Virus record (IMG/VR): IMGVR_UViG_3300031539_000254
Span: 1-27,361 of that record
Strand: one strand, 5' to 3'
Source of the DNA: a virus
Length of the DNA stretch: 27,361 bases
Part shown: positions 2,968 through 26,236 of the stretch, in pieces
Layout of the letters: each line of letters starts with the position of its first letter
How positions within the stretch are numbered: the stretch's first letter is position 1
The notes under the pieces: model-generated
Told to the model about the DNA's origin: nothing
The model's database searches: none
What the model saw: the letters and a program-made list of their open reading frames with translations, nothing else
Program-made: the position numbers and the translations under genes

Positions 2968-4026
2968 ATGTTGATCGATGCTAAGAAGTTCAGCAAGGCT
3001 TTGGCGATGGTAAAGAAGGTGGCTAGTGCTGGCTTTGGGCCTCAATGTGGGAAGATCAGGTTGAGGGGGGATAGGCTTGAGGCCGCGTCTTTTGGTGTGA
3101 GCATTTCTCTCTCTCTGGAAACGGAAGCAGATTTTGACTGTGTGCTTCCTGTGGATACTCTGGTGGGCGTGGTAAAAGGGTTGAAAGGCGAGCTTAGCCT
3201 AGCTCAGGAGAAGGGATCGATCCTGCTTGAGTGTGGCAAGCACAGGTCTAACATAGCGACCGAGAAGCTCAGTGACTGGAGGATGGTTCCTGCGGGTGAT
3301 GGGGAGGAAGCTGTCCCCGAAAACCTTGACAAAGCACTGGCTTGCTGCCTTAGCGTGATAGCTAAGAGCGAAATTAGAAGCCACTTCAATGGTGTTTCTT
3401 TGCATGAAAATGGGACACAGTTGGTTGCGTCAGACGGGTTTAGGGTGGTCAGATACACCCTGGAAACGGGCCTGCCAGTCAATGATGTGATCTTGCCAAA
3501 AGCGTTTGTGGAGGTTGTTAGCAAGCTAGACAGTATTAGTAGCCTGTCTTATACTCCTGAAAGCTTGAGTGTGCTTTCTAGATCAGAAACCATCTCAGCA
3601 CCAACTATTGTTGGCTGCACTTTTGTTGATGCTGTGTTTCCTAAGGAATGGCTACAGTTTTTCCCAACAGAAGACAGGGGCCAGTGGGTGACGCTGAACA
3701 TGGCAGGGGGTATGACAGACTGCTTGAAACGAATGACTCTATATGAGACGGCAGATTTGTACTTCCCTGGGGTAGACTTTAAGCTAGAGGGAGGTGCCCT
3801 GTTTTGTAATTACAAGGGCAAGCGTACAATCGCAGAGGAAGAGATTGCGATAGACCCTCCTTACACAGGCTTGCCTTGGGAATGGTCTACCTATCCATCC
3901 TACTTGCTGAGTGCTTTGATGTTGTCTCAAGGCAGGTTTACGATAAGACGAAGTCCAGATCTTGTGTGTGCTAAGAGCGAAACCGACCCTGTAGAAGTAC
4001 TTGTGAGCGTTACTGCTAATGGGTAA
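2968..4026 (+). CDS. DNA polymerase sliding clamp (DnaN/beta-like)
   Basis: At 352 aa this is slightly shorter than bacterial DnaN (about 366). The middle contains SHFNGVSLHENGTQLVASDGFRV, cut here for length; it matches the domain-2 signature of the beta clamp, in which a strand is followed by VATDGHR. The usual three-domain layout and the end in a short hydrophilic tail also fit. The clamp encircles DNA and tethers the polymerase, and its polymerase and loader are the next genes. ATG 2968 has AGGGTAG upstream, just behind a terminator hairpin. The stop overlaps the polymerase start by 8 bases, suggesting translational coupling. Bacterial-type rather than T4 gp45-type ancestry is my reading of the sequence. 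Confidence 0.85.
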   Translation: MLIDAKKFSKALAMVKKVASAGFGPQCGKIRLRGDRLEAASFGVSISLSLETEADFDCVLPVDTLVGVVKGLKGELSLAQEKGSILLECGKHRSNIATEKLSDWRMVPAGDGEEAVPENLDKALACCLSVIAKSEIRSHFNGVSLHENGTQLVASDGFRVVRYTLETGLPVNDVILPKAFVEVVSKLDSISSLSYTPESLSVLSRSETISAPTIVGCTFVDAVFPKEWLQFFPTEDRGQWVTLNMAGGMTDCLKRMTLYETADLYFPGVDFKLEGGALFCNYKGKRTIAEEEIAIDPPYTGLPWEWSTYPSYLLSALMLSQGRFTIRRSPDLVCAKSETDPVEVLVSVTANG

Positions 4027-6547
4027 ATCCCTAGCGTTCTATTTGGATCCGGATGCAGCCTGGGAAGCAATGGGTTCTACGGGCAGGCCAAACCGTAGAA
4101 ACATTTCAGGCCCCAAAGGGGGTTGTGAGGGTTGTGTAGGCAAAGATTTTGCCAGGGCCCCAAGAATTCCTGGTTTTGGGGAGAAAACAGGGCTGGTTAT
4201 AGTGGGTGAGGGTCCTGGCGATAGCGAGGACAGGCAGGGCATTCCTTTTGTCGGGGCTACGGGGAGGTATCTCAGAGAGGTTTTGGTTGATCTAGGCATT
4301 CATATGGATAAGGACTGTTTCAGGACCAATGCTTTACAGTGCTATATTCCAAAAGTCAAAAAGACAAAGCAGGTCTTGGAAAAGTGTAGGGCAAACTGTT
4401 TGCACAGGCTGGAGGCAGAGCTACATAAATTAGAGCCTAAGCTGATTCTGTGCTTTGGTGGCCCTGCGGTCAAGTCTGTTTTGAGCCCACCTTTCGGAAC
4501 ACAGATCAGCAAGCTTCGAGGCAGGTTGATCCCCTCCCAAAAGTATCAATGCTGGGTGGCGTGCTTGTTACATCCCTCTTACATTCTCAGGCAAGTGCAG
4601 ATTGCTTCTGACTTTGGTCAAGAGAGTGATATGCCCAGCCTGTTCCGTCAAGATCTGAAGAATGCTCTTAGATATCTGGATATACCTATTGATGAGGTGC
4701 CTTACTTAAATCCGGGAGAGTTTGAGTATGTCACTGATGCAGACGAGGCAATAAGGATTCTGGAAAGGCTGTCAAGATCTGATAGACCTGTGGGGTTTGA
4801 CTATGAAACCAGCCATACTCAGCCATTCAAGGATGATTTTACACTACTGTCTGTAGGGCTGGCAGTCGAGTCAGAAGACGAAGAAATGTCTCGCTGGTTT
4901 ATACCTCTAGACTACAGGGGGCACTGGGCAGACGAGCAGCTAGAAAGTATATACAATGCTCTTAGAGGCTTTTTGCAGTCAGACTGTAAGAAGGTCTGCC
5001 AGGCCATGGATTTTGAGTACAAGGCTTCTGTAGCAGTGCTTGGTGTAAAGCCTAGAAACATAGTGCATGACACTATGGTAGGCGAACATGTCAGGGACGA
5101 GAGGAAGGGTTGTTGCAGTCTGGAGTTCCAAGTCTTCACGTCTTTTGGGGTCACTTACAAGAAGGGGGTTTCGTTCAAGAACAAGAGTCATATGACTGCT
5201 CTTGATTGCCTCCCCTCCTACAATGCCTTGGATGCTGGCTATACCCTTCACCTGTACAAAAAACAGGTTCGTGAGTTGCTGAGCATTCCGAGTGTTTATG
5301 ATGCTTACCAGTTTTTCCATACTGTAGTGCCTGTACTGTCCAGGATGTCTGAGGCTGGAATTAAAGTGGACAGGGTTTTGCTAGAAAAGATGCAGAGCGA
5401 AGCTGAAGAAGAGACTGCTATTTTACTAGAGGATTTGGCAAACCAGCCTTGCGTAGCAGATTTGGCTGAGGCAAGGAAGAAAGAGGTAAATCTGCTAAGT
5501 AATGATGATGTAAAAACAATACTCTATGATGTTCTTGGCCTTACTACCAGACAGAAGACAGAGGGTGGGGACTACTCAGTTAACGAGAAGGCTCTTAGCG
5601 GTCTGCTTGGGAAGAAAGCGCTTTCTACAGAGGCCAGGGTGTTTATCACGGCTGTTCTCAGGCTACGTAAGCTCTGCAAGTTTTCGGGCACCTACACTAA
5701 AAACCTGCTTGACCTGTCAGACGAGAGAGGGCATCTACACCCATCTTACCATTTGCATGTGGCCGAGACCTACAGGTCTTCCAGCAGCGATCCTAACTGG
5801 CAGAATCAGCCTATTCGTGATCCTGAGATGAAGAAGATCCGAAGGGCAGTGGTGCCTTTGCACGGTGACCTTTTTCTGGAGGCCGACTATGCAGGGGCAG
5901 AGGTGCGTGTATTGGCGATGTACTCTCAGGACAAGACCCTGACTACTTACCTGAATGAGGGGGTAGACTTTCACCGAATTTGGGCGAGCAGGATCTTTGC
6001 TGTTCCTGAGGCCGACGTTACCGATGAACAGCGTTTTCAGGCGAAGAACTTGTTTGTCTTCCCATCCTTTTATGGGGCGATACCCGCCTCCATTGCTCAT
6101 AATTTGGGTATGGATGTGGGCGATATAGCTATTCTCCAGGGAGTGTTGTTTCAGGAGTTTCCTGGGGTAAAGAAGTGGCAGGAGGGGGTGCTTGAGGAGT
6201 ACTTCAGCAGGGGCTATGTAAGCACCTTCATGGGTTTTCGCAGGAGAGCCCCGCTGTCTATTAACAAGGTCATCAATATGCCTATTCAGGCTACGGCTTC
6301 CCACCTGCTATTTGATGGGCTGGTCAGAGCAGACGACCTGTTTACAGAGTTCAAGTTTGGAACCAGGCTGGTTGCTCAGATTCATGACAGCGCTCTTTCC
6401 GATACCGTTGAATCTGAGCTAGAGGATGTGTTTGAAACCCTTAGGGCATGCCTTGAGACCAAGAGGTTTGACTGGGAAGGGAAAGTTAAAATGAAATGTG
6501 ACTGGAAGGTGGGGTATAACTGGTTTGACATGGAGGAACTGCTATGA
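4019..6547 (+). CDS. DNA polymerase I with N-terminal UDG-4-like domain and 3'-5' exonuclease
   Basis: This 842-aa replicative polymerase has three parts. Residues 1-200 match family-4 uracil-DNA glycosylase: GEGPGDSEDRQGIPFVGATG (63-82), HPSY (185-188), and cysteines 36, 39, 108 and 123 spaced like the family's iron-sulfur ligands. Residues 255-415 form the proofreading domain, with DYE (261-263), DFEY (331-334) and YNALD. Residues 430-842 form the family A polymerase: motif A DYAGAEVRV (Asp623), finger motif QRFQAKNLFVFPSFYG (Lys676, Tyr685), NMPIQATAS, and motif C IHDS (788-791). Motif C has Ser where most family A enzymes have Glu, and the finger helix is one residue longer than in E. coli Pol I. 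SPO1 phage polymerase has the same UDG-polymerase fusion. The start overlaps the clamp gene and the end overlaps the next gene. Confidence 0.95.
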   Translation: MGKSLAFYLDPDAAWEAMGSTGRPNRRNISGPKGGCEGCVGKDFARAPRIPGFGEKTGLVIVGEGPGDSEDRQGIPFVGATGRYLREVLVDLGIHMDKDCFRTNALQCYIPKVKKTKQVLEKCRANCLHRLEAELHKLEPKLILCFGGPAVKSVLSPPFGTQISKLRGRLIPSQKYQCWVACLLHPSYILRQVQIASDFGQESDMPSLFRQDLKNALRYLDIPIDEVPYLNPGEFEYVTDADEAIRILERLSRSDRPVGFDYETSHTQPFKDDFTLLSVGLAVESEDEEMSRWFIPLDYRGHWADEQLESIYNALRGFLQSDCKKVCQAMDFEYKASVAVLGVKPRNIVHDTMVGEHVRDERKGCCSLEFQVFTSFGVTYKKGVSFKNKSHMTALDCLPSYNALDAGYTLHLYKKQVRELLSIPSVYDAYQFFHTVVPVLSRMSEAGIKVDRVLLEKMQSEAEEETAILLEDLANQPCVADLAEARKKEVNLLSNDDVKTILYDVLGLTTRQKTEGGDYSVNEKALSGLLGKKALSTEARVFITAVLRLRKLCKFSGTYTKNLLDLSDERGHLHPSYHLHVAETYRSSSSDPNWQNQPIRDPEMKKIRRAVVPLHGDLFLEADYAGAEVRVLAMYSQDKTLTTYLNEGVDFHRIWASRIFAVPEADVTDEQRFQAKNLFVFPSFYGAIPASIAHNLGMDVGDIAILQGVLFQEFPGVKKWQEGVLEEYFSRGYVSTFMGFRRRAPLSINKVINMPIQATASHLLFDGLVRADDLFTEFKFGTRLVAQIHDSALSDTVESELEDVFETLRACLETKRFDWEGKVKMKCDWKVGYNWFDMEELL

Positions 6548-12096: not shown

Positions 12097-13166
12097 CTAG
12101 TGTTGAGATCTCTCTCAAAATCGAAGAGCTTGATATCTTGTCTTACCTGGACTTGCATGGTATAGCTTACCAAACAGCGGGTAGGAATGTTGGTGTCGCA
12201 TGTGTAGGGGTTTGCTGCCCTGTCTGTGGTGATTCAAGTTACCACTGCGGGGTTTTTCTGGACAGGAAGAATTGGTCATGTTGGAGGTGCAATGCTAAAG
12301 GCTCTTTGTTTGATCTTATGGTGGCCTACAGCAGCATGCGTTGGGACGAGTTTCTGGATTCTCTGGGTGAGGTTGTTGTCAGATATGTGTCTGTGGAGGA
12401 GGCAGTGAAAAGCAAACTGGAAGGACCTAAAATTTTGGAGTTTGGGGGGTTGATAGTAGAAACACAAGCCCCCCCATTGCCTCCCAGCGTGCCTATAACA
12501 GAAAAGCTTCTCAGCACTTCGCGGTTGCTGAGTAGATTTTTTGAAGAGAGGCCACACCTAGACCTTTGTTCTGTAGCACAAAAAGGTGGCCGTTTTTGTT
12601 GTTCAGGTAAATATGCAAACAGGCTTATTTTACCTGTTTATAATAACAGTGATGTCCGAGTATCTTTTCAGGCCAGGGACCTGACTGGACAAGCAGAGGC
12701 TAAATACCTGGCTCCCAGTATGGCGCTAAAGTCTCATTTGTATGGTGAGCCAGATGTGCGGAGAGGCATGCCCTGGCGTCTTGTTATTATGGAGGGCATA
12801 CTGGATGCTATTGCTGTTTATGATCATCACGAGTTTCGATCAGCAACAGTGGCTACCATGGGTACTCAGGTAACCTCTGAGCAAAAGAGGTTGTTGGTTC
12901 GTCTCATAAGGGATCTAGCAGGCTACAAACTAAACTATGCCCAGGCTTGGTTTTCGGAGGATTCTCCCCATAGGACCGAGGGTCTGGAAGTATATTTTGC
13001 TTTTGATGGGGATGCTTTTTTCAAGTCTTTGGAGCTTGCCCAGGAAATGAAGCTTTTGTTACCTGGTAACACAACAATTGCTGTTTTTCAATTAGAGGAA
13101 GGAGATGACCCCTGTAGCATAGGGGGAGATAACCTTTGGGAAAAACCAACAATTCTAATCAACTGA
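12093..13166 (+). CDS. DNA primase, zinc finger plus Toprim (DnaG-type)
   Basis: The N-terminal zinc site CPVC (42-45) with CWRC (63-66) and the surrounding strands match the primase zinc-binding domain. A Toprim fold follows, with MEGILDAI (Glu234, Asp238) and the metal-binding FDGDA (Asp305, Asp307). At 357 aa it lacks the C-terminal helicase-binding region of cellular DnaG; a separate DnaB-like helicase lies 2.2 kb downstream. It should make RNA primers for lagging-strand synthesis. The start is GTG, overlapping the recombinase stop, and GGAG lies upstream. Confidence 0.88.
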   Translation: MTSVEISLKIEELDILSYLDLHGIAYQTAGRNVGVACVGVCCPVCGDSSYHCGVFLDRKNWSCWRCNAKGSLFDLMVAYSSMRWDEFLDSLGEVVVRYVSVEEAVKSKLEGPKILEFGGLIVETQAPPLPPSVPITEKLLSTSRLLSRFFEERPHLDLCSVAQKGGRFCCSGKYANRLILPVYNNSDVRVSFQARDLTGQAEAKYLAPSMALKSHLYGEPDVRRGMPWRLVIMEGILDAIAVYDHHEFRSATVATMGTQVTSEQKRLLVRLIRDLAGYKLNYAQAWFSEDSPHRTEGLEVYFAFDGDAFFKSLELAQEMKLLLPGNTTIAVFQLEEGDDPCSIGGDNLWEKPTILIN

Positions 13167-13639
13167 TAGCAGAGCATCAGCTAGCGCTGCACAAGACAAT
13201 AAATATTCTGGCCTGGGCATTTGGTAGGCCCTGTCCTGGGCTAGAGATAGATGATCTTGTCCAGGAAGGCTGGCTGATTCTGGTAAAAGCTATAGAGAAA
13301 TATGACCCTGAAATGGGGACCATCAATGCTTGGGCAAGTACTGTTCTAAGGAACCATTTCTGCAAGCTTTTGACCCAGCATTCGAGTGAGTGGAGTGCTG
13401 TAGAAGACACGGGTACAGAGGAGGATATGCTAGCCCTGATTATCGATAAGGAGGCGGGCTCTTTGCTAAAAGGGCTCCTCTCCCCTGCTGCTAAGGAACT
13501 TTACAAGTGGAAGGCCGGTGGGGGTAGGTTTGTTGGGGTAGTCAGATCTAAAGGGTGGGCTAATAGAGATTTGGTGCTGGCTCGGTCTGAGTTAAGAGAG
13601 GTCGGTAAGCTGCTGGTTTGTTTAGGGGTGCTAGAGTGA
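13136..13639 (+). CDS. Sigma-70 family protein (second in window)
   Basis: Residues 35-85 are a clear sigma-70 region 2: IDDLVQEGWLILVKAIEKYD followed by GTINAWASTVLRNHF. The 167-aa protein is of ECF or phage sigma size. The C-terminal part (SPAAKELYKWK and NRDLVLARSEL) could be a reduced region 4. The start is TTG at 13136, supported by a strong GGGGGAGA site but overlapping the primase end by 31 bases. With the protein at 2162, the window has two sigma-like genes, a plausible basis for timed use of the TTGGGGTATACTG promoters. It overlaps the next gene by GTGA. Confidence 0.78.
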   Translation: MGKTNNSNQLIAEHQLALHKTINILAWAFGRPCPGLEIDDLVQEGWLILVKAIEKYDPEMGTINAWASTVLRNHFCKLLTQHSSEWSAVEDTGTEEDMLALIIDKEAGSLLKGLLSPAAKELYKWKAGGGRFVGVVRSKGWANRDLVLARSELREVGKLLVCLGVLE

Positions 13640-15389: not shown

Positions 15390-16814
15390 ATGGGCAAGGC
15401 TGTTTTAACGGCTCATATGCAGGACAACTATATTTTTCTTGCTATAACGGATAAGGTTTTTCTGGGGGCTGTCAGGGCAGTACTCAAACCTGAGCTTCTT
15501 ACCAGTTCTATAGCAGCCGAGATTCTACAGATATGCTATGATTTTTTTGACAGGTTCGGGGAGGCCCCTGGTGACCATCTGCATGATGAAGTAGTCAGGA
15601 TTCTGCCCTTTAAGAAGGAGCCTGACAGGGAGCTATACCTAGACTATCTGACAAAGTTGCAGAGTGAGCGACCCCCACAGAGAAGTTACTGTATTGAGAC
15701 CATCTCCTCTTTTGTGAAAGAGAGAGAGGTAGGAGAGGCCCTCATTACTGCGGCGGGGCTTCTGCAAAAGGGGCAGGTAGCGGAGGTTCAGAATGTTCTT
15801 TTCAGGGCACTTAAAAGTGGGGTGGACCTTGAGAACACGGGGCTGCATTACCGCGAAAGCAAGGGGTATGCAGAAAGGGTAATAGAAGGGCCTGACGGGT
15901 TTTATCTGGACTACCTGTGTGGAATAGGAATACCTCCTTTGGGGTGGTTGAAGCTGAAGCGTGGGCAGTTTGTGACTACTTTGGGCTATTACAAATCAGG
16001 TAAGACTTGGTTCTTGATGCACCTGGCCCGTGAGGCTTTGCTGAGGGGTTTACGGGTCTTGCATGTTTCCCATGAGGTCAGTCTGGATGAAATGGAGCTT
16101 AGATATGATATGATGCTGGGAGCTTTTCATAATAAGGGCCCTGACCCATTTCCAGTACAGTATACCAGGTGGGAGGATTATAGGGTTCCTTCTACTGAGG
16201 TAAGACCGTCTGTCCTGAATATAGCTGCCGTGAAAGAGACCCGGCGTAGGATCTTCCGTTTTGGGGGGGATCTGATCATCAAAAAGTATCCAATGGGTTC
16301 TTGCACAATGGACGAATTGGAGCGGCTGGTCAATCATTTGGAACAGTTTGAAGGCTGGTCCCCCGATGTTGTTTTGAACGACTATGCAGACATCATGGCC
16401 CCCTCTCCTGGGTTTGAGAGGAAAGATACTCGACATGTGGTCAACGAGATTTATGTCAGGCATAAGCGGCTGGCAGATGAGCGTGGGATCCTGGTTGCTA
16501 CGGTGAGTCAGATCAACAGGGATGGTGCTATTGCTGAGTTTATTCACAGTAATCACATGTCTGAGGATATCAGGAAGGCAGGGAACGTCGATGTAGCTTT
16601 AGCTATCAACCAGACCGAGGCTATGAGAAAAGAGAATTGGGGCAGGTTTCATGTTCTGCTGAACAGGTCTGGGCCTATGGGTATTTATTGTTGCTATACT
16701 AGCTGTTTCGATACAGGCCAGTTTATTGTTGATACTTGGGAAGAAGAGAAAAAAGATGCACCCAGCAGCAAAGGCAAGCCAAACAGCAGGAAGGTTGGAC
16801 AGAGATCTGTCTGA
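15390..16814 (+). CDS. Replicative DNA helicase, DnaB-like
   Basis: This 474-aa protein has an N-terminal helical domain and a RecA-like ATPase domain with Walker A GYYKSGKT (199-206), Walker B VVLNDYADIM and the SQINRDG motif. The later DVALAINQTEAMR and NRSGPMG segments are placed as in the DnaB family. It should unwind DNA as a ring at the fork and work with the primase at 12093. AGGTAGG precedes ATG 15390, and a TTG sits directly before it. The gene overlaps the SNF2-like helicase by 59 bases. Confidence 0.88.
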   Translation: MGKAVLTAHMQDNYIFLAITDKVFLGAVRAVLKPELLTSSIAAEILQICYDFFDRFGEAPGDHLHDEVVRILPFKKEPDRELYLDYLTKLQSERPPQRSYCIETISSFVKEREVGEALITAAGLLQKGQVAEVQNVLFRALKSGVDLENTGLHYRESKGYAERVIEGPDGFYLDYLCGIGIPPLGWLKLKRGQFVTTLGYYKSGKTWFLMHLAREALLRGLRVLHVSHEVSLDEMELRYDMMLGAFHNKGPDPFPVQYTRWEDYRVPSTEVRPSVLNIAAVKETRRRIFRFGGDLIIKKYPMGSCTMDELERLVNHLEQFEGWSPDVVLNDYADIMAPSPGFERKDTRHVVNEIYVRHKRLADERGILVATVSQINRDGAIAEFIHSNHMSEDIRKAGNVDVALAINQTEAMRKENWGRFHVLLNRSGPMGIYCCYTSCFDTGQFIVDTWEEEKKDAPSSKGKPNSRKVGQRSV

Positions 16815-20629: not shown

Positions 20630-20879
20630 TATAATGAGCAGGGCTACAGACTTGGTAGCCCGCTTGCATAAGGCCAGGGTGGACAGAGCCAAGGCAGAGG
20701 CCAGTATGGAAGCTGCCATGAAACGGTTGAAAGACGAGTTTGACCTAGACACAGTCGCTGCTGCCAGGGAACGACTGAAAGAGCTAGAAGAAGATATTGC
20801 TGGCAATAAACAGCAAGAGGGTGTCCTTGATACTAAGCTAGACAGGATAGAAAAAGAGGCTTTTGGAGACAGCAGGTGA
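20622..20879 (+). CDS. Coiled-coil protein between the Mre11 and Rad50 C-half genes (85 aa)
   Basis: The product starts MSNIMSRATDLVARLHKARV and is almost wholly helical with heptad-like spacing and high charge (AAARERLKELEEDIAGNKQQ). It might pair with the coiled coils of the two Rad50 halves, replacing part of the missing arm, since all three genes overlap their neighbours. GGAG lies 7 bases before the ATG. No catalytic motif is present; the role is inferred from position and shape. Confidence 0.65.
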   Translation: MSNIMSRATDLVARLHKARVDRAKAEASMEAAMKRLKDEFDLDTVAAARERLKELEEDIAGNKQQEGVLDTKLDRIEKEAFGDSR

Positions 20880-21502
20880 TCTCTCTGGCTGAAAGACAAA
20901 GATTCTTTACCCAGCAGGAAACTATCCTGGATGGGCACAGAAAGGCTTTGAAAGTCCACAGGACGGAACTGGCTGACCTGGAAACCAGGGCTACCTACTT
21001 GGAAGAGGGCAGGAGCCTGGTTAATGACGTAGCTATCGTGACCCAAAGAGAAATAAGTAGCTACATTAGCGACGTGGTTACTCTGGCTCTTGCCAGCATT
21101 TATGGTGACGAGTACTCCTTTGTGGCAGAGTATGAGATCAAGCGGGACATCCCACAATTGGTCTGTACTGTCAGGAAGGGAGACTTGATTCTAGATCCCA
21201 GAGGAGAAGAGGTGGGTGGCGGGGTATTGGATGTATGTGCCTTGGGGCTGAGGCTGGTGCTTTGGTCCCTTTCCAGGTCCAGGGTCCCCTCCCTGCTGCT
21301 GCTGGACGAGCCTTTCAGGTTTGTAAGGAGCCCAGGGCAGGACCTTATGCCAAAGGCGGCAGAGGTCTTGAAAGAACTGAGCAGGATGATGAGTGTGCAG
21401 ATTATTGTGGCTACCCACAGTCCTGAATTGGCAGAGGCAGCAGACTCGGTCTTCGTGGTGACCCAGGCAGACGGGGTATCCTCTGTGGAAAAAAGGCAGT
21501 AG
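20876..21502 (+). CDS. Rad50/SbcC-like ATPase, C-terminal half
   Basis: The 208-aa protein begins with a helical coiled-coil region (residues 1-65). It then has a signature-like VGGGVLDVCAL (the usual LSGGE is degenerate), Walker B and D-loop SLLLLDEPFRF, and the H-loop VATHSPEL. These are exactly the elements missing from the N-terminal half at 18293. Together they can form a full ABC ATPase head at the base of a short coil. The start is GTG, overlapping the stop of the gene before, with GGAG 7 bases upstream. The replication block ends here; the next element is a promoter-led RNA region. Confidence 0.88.
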   Translation: MISLAERQRFFTQQETILDGHRKALKVHRTELADLETRATYLEEGRSLVNDVAIVTQREISSYISDVVTLALASIYGDEYSFVAEYEIKRDIPQLVCTVRKGDLILDPRGEEVGGGVLDVCALGLRLVLWSLSRSRVPSLLLLDEPFRFVRSPGQDLMPKAAEVLKELSRMMSVQIIVATHSPELAEAADSVFVVTQADGVSSVEKRQ

Positions 21503-21513
21503 TTTGGTCTGTC

Positions 21514-21526
21514 TTGGGGTATACTG
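21514..21526 (+). promoter_or_regulatory. Promoter -10 region, TTGGGGTATACTG class, before the structured RNA
   Basis: The exact 13-base string occurs 12 bases after the Rad50 C-half stop codon, with TATACT at 21520-21525. No good -35 is present at 16-18 bases, so the GGGG extension may make up for it. It should transcribe the structured RNA and tRNA-Met. Confidence 0.65.
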
Positions 21527-21531
21527 TAATG

Positions 21532-21825
21532 GATGGATGCTCTTTACCAACCCACCTCCCGAAGCGGACGGCTTAGCGATAAAGCCCAGGACACCTACCT
21601 ATAACTAAGTCGCGGGTTTGCTGCCAACTCACTTGCTCGGACAAGAACCTGCCTGATTGGTTTCTGGGCGGTCATAGACAAAGCTGGGCTTCCCCGCTTC
21701 GGGTAATTTTACATGGCTGTTTGGGTTTGAAGTGCTGACTACAGATCCAACGAGGTGAGAGTTGCTCGCCCCTTCTCCACCTAACAGCCATCTAGAGCCC
21801 AGGAACGGTCCCCTCCTGGGCTCTA
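21532..21825 (+). ncRNA. Structured non-coding RNA of unknown family
   Basis: About 300 bases lack a convincing gene but contain strong pairing. CCCGAAGCGG (21558-21567) pairs 10/10 with 21694-21703. AAGCCCAG (21582-21589) pairs 8/8 with 21684-21691, nested inside the first helix. ATGGCTGTT (21713-21721) pairs 9/9 with 21783-21791. AGGTG-A-GAG (21753-21761) pairs with 21775-21782, stacking on that helix. A 12-bp hairpin at 21793-21825 closes the region. A promoter lies directly upstream and tRNA-Met directly downstream. I tested mentally for tmRNA, RNase P, 6S, SRP and group I intron signatures and found no match. Exact ends are uncertain. Confidence 0.6.
21793..21825 (+). terminator. Strong hairpin, possible terminator or processing signal
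   Basis: TAGAGCCCAGGA (21793-21804) pairs 12/12 with 21814-21825 around a 9-base loop. No T run follows (CTATA), and tRNA-Met begins 5 bases later. It is therefore more likely the end or a cleavage site of the structured RNA than a full terminator. Confidence 0.55.
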
Positions 21826-21829
21826 CTAT

Positions 21830-21904
21830 AACGGGGTAGAGGAATGGTACCTCAGCGGGTTCATGTCCCGTATGTTGCAGGTTCGAGTCCTGCCCCCGTT
21901 ACCA
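21830..21904 (+). tRNA. tRNA with CAT anticodon (Met or Ile2 type)
   Basis: This is a full 75-nt cloverleaf. Acceptor AACGGGG pairs with CCCCGTT, the D arm is GAGG/CCTC, the anticodon stem GCGGG/CCCGT has loop TTCATGT, and the T arm is GCAGG/CCTGC with TTCGAGT. The discriminator is A and CCA is encoded. The anticodon is CAT, but G at position 37 and T at 38 are unusual for Met tRNAs. Whether it reads Met or, after lysidine modification, Ile cannot be decided here. Confidence 0.9.
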
Positions 21905-21922: not shown

Positions 21923-22372
21923 GTGTTGTATCAAGTAGTAGGTGCTACAGGAGCAGAGCTTGCCAAGGAGGCAATGTGGCTGGCTTGGAAAGCTTGTGGT
22001 GGCCCTAAAGGAATGGGTGTATTTCAGGACAGACCTCTTGCTACTAAAGTAGAGGTTGTTGCGGCTGCTGCCGGGGCATATGATTATGGGGGTTCTGTTC
22101 ACAAGCAATCAGGGCCGGGAACATTGGACGGGGATTACGTCTTTGGCCGAATGATGAAGCTCCGCATGCAGTTTGCTGGTAATGAAATCACTCTAACAGA
22201 CGGTCCTCTCTCTCCAGGCTACCATGATTGGGATCGTTTGTACCCCTCCTATGAGGCCCTGTTGATAGCGGCTGCTGAAAGCCTGGGTGTTGACCTGCTA
22301 AGAGATAATGGGCTTGTAGCCCAATTCAGCTTGGCTAAAGATAAACCCGCCCCATCTAAGGAGATCGAGTAA
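21923..22372 (+). CDS. Phage protein of unknown function (149 aa)
   Basis: The product starts MLYQVVGATGAELAKEAMWLAWKAC (shown in part). Its first half has the recurring phage-type pattern of a helix with WLAWKACGG, then FQDRP and a strand-rich middle (DGDYVFGRMMKLRM). It ends in a polar lysine-rich tail. I chose GTG 21923 because GGAG lies 8 bases upstream and the tRNA ends at 21904; a TTG follows at 21926. The stop overlaps the next gene's ATG. I recognise a familiar hypothetical family but know no function. Confidence 0.72.
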   Translation: MLYQVVGATGAELAKEAMWLAWKACGGPKGMGVFQDRPLATKVEVVAAAAGAYDYGGSVHKQSGPGTLDGDYVFGRMMKLRMQFAGNEITLTDGPLSPGYHDWDRLYPSYEALLIAAAESLGVDLLRDNGLVAQFSLAKDKPAPSKEIE

Positions 22373-22671
22373 TGTCAGGTTCGCAGGCTGTAAAGGTTTT
22401 TGTTCTTGTCGTTGCCTTCCTTGCGATGATATCAGTCTGCTGGTTTGCAGACTATACCTTTTATCCCAGTGTCCAGAGAGAGGCTGCTCTGGATCAATTT
22501 GATGCAAAAAAAGCAGATTCTGCCTTTGTAGTTATGAGAGCTACCCAGTCTTCAAAAAACGTGGTCAAGTCTATGCCTGTTGTAGTTACCTTTGTGTTGG
22601 GGATCGCCCTGTTTTGGAAGGAGGTTAAAAGGGGCGTGCTTTACTTGTTCCAAAAACCCTCTTGTAGATAG
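22372..22671 (+). CDS. Two-pass membrane protein (99 aa)
   Basis: The product begins MSGSQAVKVFVLVVAFLAMI, with a first hydrophobic segment at about residues 7-28 and a second (PVVVTFVLGIALFW) at about 69-83. Between them is a polar region of about 40 residues with many charges, and the C-terminus is basic. AAGGAG precedes the ATG, which overlaps the upstream stop. It lies directly before the SPFH-like lipoprotein (11-base gap), so the two may act together at the membrane. No family is recognised. Confidence 0.7.
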   Translation: MSGSQAVKVFVLVVAFLAMISVCWFADYTFYPSVQREAALDQFDAKKADSAFVVMRATQSSKNVVKSMPVVVTFVLGIALFWKEVKRGVLYLFQKPSCR

Positions 22672-22682
22672 GAAACCTTGCT

Positions 22683-23804
22683 ATGAAGATTCGACTTTTG
22701 CTGGTAGCCGCTTTGGTGGCAGCATGTACTCTGGTAGGCTGTTCTCAGTATGACACCCCGGAGTATGTGGAGATTGGCAACAACGAAACGGCCTACCTGG
22801 TGACGCTTGAAGGCTCACCCCAGGCCAAGAAGAACGTATCCTACAGCGTTGACGACCTGAAGCAAATGGAGCTTCCACCCACTACCAAGAGGGTGCAGAT
22901 TCCTCACAGGTGGAACAAGTTGGGTTATTGGTACAGAGATGGTGTGTGGATCCCTATTGTTAGGGTCCTGGTTGTTAACAGAACACCAGAAACCCGTGAA
23001 TGGGAAGCTGAGGCTGGCAAGGGTACCTCTAAGAACAACGAGGCCCTGTGGATTGAGTCCAGTGACAGCATCGAGTTCTCCTGTTCAATCACCTGTACGG
23101 CCATGATCAAACCAGAAGATGCTTCGATGTTTCTGTTTTACTACCCTACTACAGTAAGTGGTAAGTCCGATGTACTTGGTGAAAGAGCCCTTTCACGAGC
23201 AACACTGGCCCCGATCATGGATGGAGAGATTCGAGGAAGAATCCAGTCTTCGGCTGCGGAGTTTTGCTCCGGGCTGGCAATGACAGAACTAAGAACCAAG
23301 AAGAAGGAAATGCTGCTGTTTGTGCAAGAACAGACCGTTGCTTTCTTTGCAGAGCGTGGCATTTCTATCACCAACCTGGGTCTTGGTGGAGGTTTTGTTT
23401 ACCGAGATCAGAAGATTCAGGATTCTATCAACGAGAACTTCGTGGCCCAGCAACTCATGGTCGTGAATAAGGCCAAGCTGGATGCTCAGGAAGACGACAA
23501 CAAGCGTGTTCGGCTGGCTGCTGAGGCCCAGGGTGACGCTATGGCAGAGGTCGAGCTTAGGGCTGCGAAGGGCGTGGCCGATGGCATGCGAGAGATTGCG
23601 AAGGCCGCATCTGAGGCCCAGACAAACCCCTTGTTCTACAAGCTCAGGGTGCTGGAGACGCTGAACCAAGCTGTAGATAAGTGGGACGGCAGCGTGCCCC
23701 GATGGTTGTTTATGCCTACTGGGAACGGGAATGGAATAGCTCCTCCCGCCATGCTGCTCAACATCCCTGCCGAGCCTGACGTTGCTACCTCGCAGGTAAG
23801 GTAG
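22683..23804 (+). CDS. Lipoprotein with SPFH/band-7 (prohibitin-like) body
   Basis: The 373-aa protein has a signal peptide MKIRLLLVAALVAACTLVGC; the lipobox LVGC places the lipidated cysteine at residue 20. The body looks like an SPFH/band-7 protein: VRVLVVNRTPE, then SIEFSCSITCTAMIKPEDAS (about residues 130-150), ERGISITNLGLGGGFVYRDQ, and a long charged helix (LAAEAQGDAMAEVELRAAKG). SPFH proteins form membrane-bound oligomers that scaffold or modulate membrane complexes. Phage versions are not well characterised; a role in superinfection exclusion or in protecting the membrane is speculation. AGGAAA precedes the ATG. A terminator follows at 23859. Confidence 0.75.
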   Translation: MKIRLLLVAALVAACTLVGCSQYDTPEYVEIGNNETAYLVTLEGSPQAKKNVSYSVDDLKQMELPPTTKRVQIPHRWNKLGYWYRDGVWIPIVRVLVVNRTPETREWEAEAGKGTSKNNEALWIESSDSIEFSCSITCTAMIKPEDASMFLFYYPTTVSGKSDVLGERALSRATLAPIMDGEIRGRIQSSAAEFCSGLAMTELRTKKKEMLLFVQEQTVAFFAERGISITNLGLGGGFVYRDQKIQDSINENFVAQQLMVVNKAKLDAQEDDNKRVRLAAEAQGDAMAEVELRAAKGVADGMREIAKAASEAQTNPLFYKLRVLETLNQAVDKWDGSVPRWLFMPTGNGNGIAPPAMLLNIPAEPDVATSQVR

Positions 23805-23858: not shown

Positions 23859-23902
23859 GAGACCTGGGGGTGGGGGGTGTTCCATCCCCAGGTCTCATTT
23901 TT
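23859..23902 (+). terminator. Intrinsic terminator after the lipoprotein gene
   Basis: GAGACCTGGGG (23859-23869) pairs 11/11 with CCCCAGGTCTC (23886-23896) around a 16-base loop, and ATTTTT follows. It closes the transcript of 21830-23804; a promoter follows at 23923. Confidence 0.85.
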
Positions 23903-23922: not shown

Positions 23923-23935
23923 TTGGGGTATACTG
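23923..23935 (+). promoter_or_regulatory. Promoter -10 region, TTGGGGTATACTG class, before tRNA-Ser(GCT)
   Basis: The exact 13-base string lies 21 bases after the terminator and 8 bases before tRNA-Ser. TATACT is at 23929-23934. The -35 region is poor, so the extended -10 may be the main signal. It should drive the tRNA and the genes to about 25280. Confidence 0.7.
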
Positions 23936-24608: not shown

Positions 24609-25280
24609 ATGGCTTTACACGGTTTGGGTAGACTTGTGGCTGTTGATCCTAGAGATGGGTTGCACCTGCTCTTTAGAAAGGCTAAGAAGAGCAAGAGGGT
24701 AACTAGATATTGGTATGACAATCGCTGGTGGGCTGACCAGGGCGAGACACCCCACTGTGTAGGCTATGCCTGGGCACACTGGCTGGTCAATACCCCTGTA
24801 ATCAATTACATGGACCCAAACGGGCTATATGCCCTTGCCCAGCAGAATGACGAGTGGCCTGGTGAGGATTATGATGGTACCACTGTCAGGGCTGGAGCCA
24901 AGGTGCTTAGGACCCTTGGGTTTATCCATGAGTATAAGTGGGCTTTTACCCTTGATACCCTTGTGGAAGCTCTACTGGAAAAAGGCCCTGTGGTTGTGGG
25001 TACAGACTGGTATGAGGCCATGTCCAATCCCAATCGTTATGGCAAGATCAAGATAGGGGGTAAGAAGGAAGGAGGGCATGCTTACTTGCTGACTGGAGTG
25101 GATACGAAGAAAAGAGTTTTCAGAATAAAGAATTCTTGGGGTCGTGCCTGGGGTAAACAGGGAAGAGCCCTCATCGGATTTGCAGAAATGAGAATATTGC
25201 TTCGGGAAAAAGGTGAGGCTTGCTTGGCTGTGGAGCGGGCAGTTACATCGGAAGGGTTGCCCAAAGCAGTTAAAAAGTAA
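24609..25280 (+). CDS. Papain-like (C1) cysteine peptidase
   Basis: The 223-aa protein carries the C1 pattern. DQGETPHCVGYAWAHW has the oxyanion Gln44 and the nucleophile Cys50. GGHAYLLTGV has the catalytic His157. RIKNSWGRAWGKQG has Asn175, and the NSWG...WG motif is diagnostic for papain-family enzymes. There is no signal peptide or propeptide, so it would act in the cytoplasm unless moved by other means. Phage homologues are seen occasionally, with unclear substrates. Cleavage of a phage protein or a host defence protein is possible. AAAGG precedes the ATG. Confidence 0.88.
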   Translation: MALHGLGRLVAVDPRDGLHLLFRKAKKSKRVTRYWYDNRWWADQGETPHCVGYAWAHWLVNTPVINYMDPNGLYALAQQNDEWPGEDYDGTTVRAGAKVLRTLGFIHEYKWAFTLDTLVEALLEKGPVVVGTDWYEAMSNPNRYGKIKIGGKKEGGHAYLLTGVDTKKRVFRIKNSWGRAWGKQGRALIGFAEMRILLREKGEACLAVERAVTSEGLPKAVKK

Positions 25281-26185: not shown

Positions 26186-26236
26186 ATTTTTTGTTGAAAA
26201 GGTCCTGTGATTGGGGTATACTGTGCCAGGCAACAA
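26183..26236 (+). repeat. Promoter-containing direct repeat, copy 1
   Basis: This 54-base block, beginning CCAATTTTTTG, matches 26982-27035 with one mismatch. It begins with the CCA end of tRNA-Ser(TGA) and contains a full promoter. It appears to be a duplicated regulatory cassette. Confidence 0.93.
26194..26223 (+). promoter_or_regulatory. Strong promoter, TTGGGGTATACTG class, copy 1
   Basis: TTGAAA (26194-26199) and TATACT (26217-26222) are 17 bases apart, an ideal sigma-70 arrangement. The 13-base string spans 26211-26223. It should drive the cysteine-rich gene and tRNA-Thr. Confidence 0.9.

Follow-up and report, generated by a model that had tools for sequence, protein, structure and literature searches.

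What is encoded at 21503-21829 of this virus record (27,361 bases, analysed as a whole and called the window below), in the interval 3' of the stop codon of an SbcC-like ATPase gene and 5' of a tRNA-Met gene? The plus strand of this interval contains no open reading frame (ORF) of at least 60 aa, the longest open stretch lying entirely within it being 51 codons from stop to stop. This agrees with the first-pass annotation, which had described the stretch as free of genes and as lying before tRNA-Met; the tRNA (anticodon CAU) was called at 21830-21904 by both ARAGORN and Rfam. According to folding predictions, the ~300-base noncoding stretch very probably adopts an elaborate RNA structure, and as a structured element it is real and statistically strong. 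It is also an orphan, without a known family or a detectable relative, and its function is one that we infer. The features of the locus are:

20876-21502: gene for the SbcC-like ATPase (PHROG 15167)
21514-21526, plus strand: phage-class promoter core TTGGGGTATACTG, five exact copies in the contig
21532-21829, plus strand: candidate structured RNA of ~298 nt, from the predicted +1 to the 5' end of the tRNA, supported by its fold z-score and the lack of an ORF of 60 aa
21830-21904, plus strand: tRNA-Met (CAU) with encoded CCA (ARAGORN; Rfam tRNA, 62.9 bits)
21923-22372, plus strand: first ORF of the unit, with a GTG start behind TGGAGAAA; no family
22372-22671, plus strand: 99-aa ORF; no confident family
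22683-23804, plus strand: 373-aa ORF of a PHROG 'lipoprotein' family (E 1.3e-14)
23859-23896, plus strand: likely terminator of the unit, a 17-pair stem followed by T-rich ATTTTTGTGT

Promoter and transcription unit

The sequence TTGGGGTATACTG occurs in five identical copies, at 2104, 21514, 23923, 26211 and 27010, all on the plus strand, while the reversed control sequence gave 0. Since one of them, at 21514, is located directly upstream of the element, the earlier description of the RNA as promoter-led is upheld. The spacing from the -10 element predicts a transcription start near 21532, and, judging by the promoter, the element is very probably transcribed. The copy at 23923 is found immediately before tRNA-Ser, and those at 2104, 26211 and 27010 are each followed by a short leader and then a gene. 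The likely terminator at 23859-23896 just precedes the copy at 23923. When the whole transcript was folded jointly, the tRNA-Met cloverleaf and the fold of the RNA were both retained. As separate observations, the copies at 26211 and 27010 lie within a near-identical 57-base duplicated promoter region, and the ORF at 13136-13639 is weakly sigma-factor-like.

Predicted secondary structure

The region 21530-21829 is predicted to fold at -117.2 kcal/mol (z -4.7). Among 182 windows of 300 nt surveyed across both strands, the element ranked first (z -4.8), the remaining windows having a mean z of -0.5 (sd 1.1); the minus strand of the element reached only -2.3. Perfect helices of 8 bp or more number five, whereas 1000 dinucleotide shuffles average 0.61 and none reaches five; for helices of 9 bp or more the count is four, with 0.15 expected. 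Nowhere else in the contig do three or more such perfect helices occur. The ranking (z about -4.8, top of the 182 windows) and the excess of perfect helices bear out the earlier view of a highly structured RNA, although a strong folding energy does not by itself prove a functional one. The predicted helices are arranged in three modules:

21558-21703, plus strand: module A, helices P1-P4 (mean pair probabilities 0.97-0.99)
21558-21567/21694-21703: P1 of module A, perfect, 10 bp
21570-21577/21683-21690: P2 of module A, using G-U pairs
21584-21591/21662-21669: P3 of module A
21612-21619/21645-21652: P4 of module A
21713-21791, plus strand: module B, with two arms, closed by the 9-bp helix AUGGCUGUU/AACAGCCAU
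21713-21721/21783-21791: closing helix of module B, perfect, 9 bp
21793-21804/21814-21825, plus strand: module C, a perfect 12-bp hairpin that ends 4 nt before the tRNA
21582-21589/21684-21691, plus strand: alternative 8-bp helix, a true complement but disfavoured (pair probability about 0.001)

In module B, the mean pair probabilities are 0.91 for the closing helix, 0.98 for the first arm and 0.72-0.80 for the second. The helices of 8, 9 and 10 bp and the 12-bp hairpin named in the first-pass annotation are all perfect complements; however, of the 10-bp and 8-bp helices that it stacked into one arm, the 8-bp pairing is not favoured (probability about 0.001). The 5' strand of this helix prefers 21662-21669 and its 3' strand prefers 21570-21577, so that P3 and P2 outcompete it, and forcing it costs about 4.7 kcal/mol (-112.5 vs -117.2 kcal/mol). 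Hairpin C is not followed by a T run and is therefore not an intrinsic terminator. The 9-base word AGCCCAGGA is present in module A and repeated in hairpin C.

Comparison with known RNA families

Does the element belong to a family that has already been described? When the whole window was scanned, tRNA was the only Rfam 15 family matched at the gathering score. Apart from the tRNA, a relaxed scan of the 511-base region returned no credible match up to E=10, its weak microRNA and snoRNA matches being far under the gathering scores; the proposed assignment to no known family thus passed the Rfam check. The same relaxed scan recovers sub-threshold YrlA-like RNAs in distant phages and is therefore not blind to diverged family members. 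The ROOL and GOLLD covariance models gave no match either at the gathering score or up to E=10, and no covariance-model match was obtained for tmRNA, RNase P RNA, 6S RNA or group I and group II introns. ARAGORN finds no tmRNA either; the first-pass annotation had seen no signatures of tmRNA, RNase P or 6S RNA. The HDV-like Rfam families did not match, though theta ribozymes themselves may lack an Rfam model, and YrlA (RF02553) was not matched in the element. A pattern scan for the permuted T-arm, acceptor and D-arm unit, positive in the relatives' loci L078, L096, L099, L100 and L112, showed this unit to be absent from the RNA of the window. A permuted or intron-bearing tRNA identity was rejected, because the RNA has no T-arm/D-arm pair.

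The resemblance to previously described RNAs is one of context only. In the T4 tRNA cluster, RNAs C and D are stable noncoding RNAs that are co-transcribed with phage tRNAs and whose function is unknown; they are shorter than the RNA described here, and the likeness is contextual, with no sequence similarity claimed. ROOL and GOLLD are structured phage or prophage RNAs, often located near tRNA islands, with unknown function (PMC12286853). They share with the RNA of the window a structured fold and a tRNA neighbourhood but are large (many GOLLDs exceed 800 nt; PMC12286853), compared to ~298 nt between the predicted start and the tRNA here. GOLLD env-38 was found downstream of tRNA-Met (PMC12286853), whereas our RNA precedes tRNA-Met. 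A homo-oligomeric cage is a further feature of ROOL and GOLLD. Theta (HDV-like) ribozymes, minimal phage ribozymes proposed to mature tRNA 3' ends (PMC10879173), are likewise structured RNAs immediately beside tRNA genes; however, such a role does not suit an RNA that lies 5' of tRNA-Met and has a protein gene upstream. YrlA is also a multi-helix noncoding RNA, and distant relatives of this phage carry genes resembling it, but its tRNA-mimicking module of T arm, acceptor and D arm is absent from the RNA of the window.

Other tRNA-like genes

A tRNA of normal order with about 74 extra bases between the D arm and the T arm was noticed at 1848-1993 of the window. Neither ARAGORN nor the whole-window Rfam scan called it, yet it scored 39.5 bits to RF00005 in a local scan. 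Its predicted fold includes a 7-nt-loop hairpin (CTGATCA), which could be an anticodon arm with GAU, and the gene may be an intron-bearing or a bloated tRNA. It is located near an RNA ligase gene (64-1176).

Permuted tRNA-like genes, in which the T arm and the acceptor 3' strand precede the acceptor 5' strand and the D arm, were observed in relatives at 5028-5157 of L099 and 16288-16417 (minus strand) of L078, with similar ones in L079, L096, L100 and L112. Between L096 and L099, paired changes are seen in the acceptor and D stems. Their reading as permuted tRNA genes was abandoned, as Rfam matched two of them to YrlA (Y RNA-like), below threshold (39.7 bits for L099 and 35.9 bits for L078; gathering score 69), and they are probably diverged phage-borne Y RNAs. 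Two permuted tRNA-like units were also noted in L078 (13878-13932 and 3882-3935, minus-strand coordinates), where 27 tRNAs and a tmRNA are called in the surrounding stretch. In the upstream halves of the two units there are 7-nt-loop hairpins with CAU and GCU in the anticodon position, and the unit at 3882-3935 overlaps the YrlA-like match at 16288-16417.

Search for relatives

BLASTN of the RNA gave no match in phages, only a 26-base chance match in plasmids, and only chance matches of 14-22 bases in loci from protein-guided scans; nhmmer found no match in the latter loci. Single-sequence covariance models R1 and R2, run against 52 sources, detected the RNA in the window alone, and a run of R1 over 26 whole virus records and two genome loci gave no match. 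In IMG/VR, no exact 18-22-mer taken from the RNA or the tRNA was matched.

The contig carries a replication block with genes for RNA ligase, a polymerase processivity factor, family A DNA polymerase, clamp loader, UvsX-like recombinase, primase, DnaB-like helicase and SbcC/SbcD-like proteins. Scans that used the adjacent ATPase or the DNA polymerase singly, with search patterns not picked from conserved stretches, retrieved no relatives. Alignment-guided scans with the peptidase and the SbcC-like ATPase yielded 71, 27 and 23 viral loci and 2 genome loci, the best identities being 53% (peptidase) and 37% (ATPase). Phages sharing the order clamp loader, UvsX, SbcC, SbcD and SbcC-like ATPase, often together with the polymerase, show about 22-39% protein identity, and BLAST, nhmmer and covariance models all failed to detect a counterpart of the RNA in the region that follows their ATPase gene. 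As every sequence aligned from this group keeps the ATPase motif around LLDEPFR, a closer IMG/VR relative with the SbcC-like ATPase would very probably have surfaced, the records nearest to the window possibly having been excluded. Being one sequence with no relative found, the RNA has the status of a candidate rather than of a family.

Two further observations concern the proteins of the window. The family A DNA polymerase (4019-6547) has ADYAGAEVRV where two of the three aligned relatives have a motif A of the DYSQIELR/DYSQLELR type. The product of 24609-25280 is a papain-like cysteine peptidase, the nearest IMG/VR relatives of which are up to 53% identical; relatives of this gene adjoin holin genes in Gordonia phages.

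Possible role of the RNA

The promoter, the predicted fold, the tRNA and the terminator are seen directly in the sequence, and the transcript that joins them is what we infer. Our preferred reading, offered tentatively and falling just short of probable, is a phage noncoding structured RNA that is co-transcribed with tRNA-Met, freed by RNase P and most likely active in trans. The phage-class promoter would start a transcript near 21532 that would span the ~298-nt three-module RNA, tRNA-Met and the three small ORFs, up to the terminator at 23859-23896. RNase P matures the 5' ends of precursor tRNAs; given this activity and the intact cloverleaf in the joint fold, it could be expected to cut at 21829/21830 and so part the RNA from tRNA-Met. 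The 3' end of the released RNA would carry the 12-bp hairpin, which should slow exonucleases. The free RNA would then most likely act in trans, as a stable RNA binding a protein or the translation machinery. This last step is the weakest, and it is suggested by analogy with ROOL and GOLLD (PMC12286853) and with T4 RNAs C and D. That the RNA founds a new class of compact three-module phage RNAs, with their own promoter, released by RNase P and trans-acting in infection, appears doubtful.

The main rival to a trans-acting RNA is a cis-acting leader, a folded 5' region that would control its own operon and have no separate life after cleavage, either as an antitermination element or as a leader that affects the processing or stability of tRNA-Met and the three ORFs. 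The element does follow the promoter and precede the first products in a unit well bounded by promoter and terminator. Moreover, as AGCCCAGGA is repeated in modules A and C, the 3' arm of hairpin C could pair with either copy, and switch pairing would be possible; however, it is about 33 kcal/mol worse in the equilibrium fold, and hairpin C, having no T run, is not a terminator that could be controlled. In phage HK022, the put RNAs are antitermination elements and likewise structured RNAs directly after a phage promoter, but they are far shorter, the likeness is by description only, and ~298 nt is long for an element of this type. The other promoter copies of the phage, in turn, have short leaders. 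A cis-acting role is, on balance, somewhat unlikely.

The stretch could also be a relic or spacer, that is, sequence that was inserted or duplicated, or the decayed remains of a structured RNA or of a tRNA gene, in either case now functionless. Neither a homologue nor a syntenic counterpart was found, the repeated AGCCCAGGA word hints at internal duplication, and folding energy does not equal selection. On the other hand, in the absence of selection the four perfect complementarities of 9-12 bp (0.15 expected) would be lost over time unless they were recent, and no tRNA remnant was detected in the element; we regard this origin as improbable.

It is very improbable that the inverted repeats work at the level of DNA, duplex or single-stranded, by serving as a replication origin or packaging site: the region is intergenic, rich in inverted repeats and beside a promoter, but the GC skew is uniformly positive along the entire contig and does not inflect at 21.5 kb, which weakens the origin idea, the transcribed strand folds more strongly (z -4.8 vs -2.3), and P2 and other helices contain G-U pairs that do not form on the opposite strand. 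Just as remote is a divergent member of a known family (a tRNA-associated ribozyme, Y RNA-like RNA, tmRNA, RNase P RNA, 6S RNA, ROOL, GOLLD or a group I intron), for although ROOL, GOLLD and theta ribozymes typically lie near tRNAs (PMC12286853, PMC10879173) and distant phages here carry sub-threshold Y RNA-like genes, the relaxed scan that picked up those diverged genes gave nothing credible to E=10 in the stretch, which also has no permuted T-arm/D-arm unit.

Phages keep structured RNAs, such as ROOL, GOLLD and T4 RNAs C and D, beside their tRNA genes, and the roles of these RNAs are unknown. Testing a compact RNA of this kind, with its clear promoter and its bounded unit of transcription, would be simpler than testing the giant ones.
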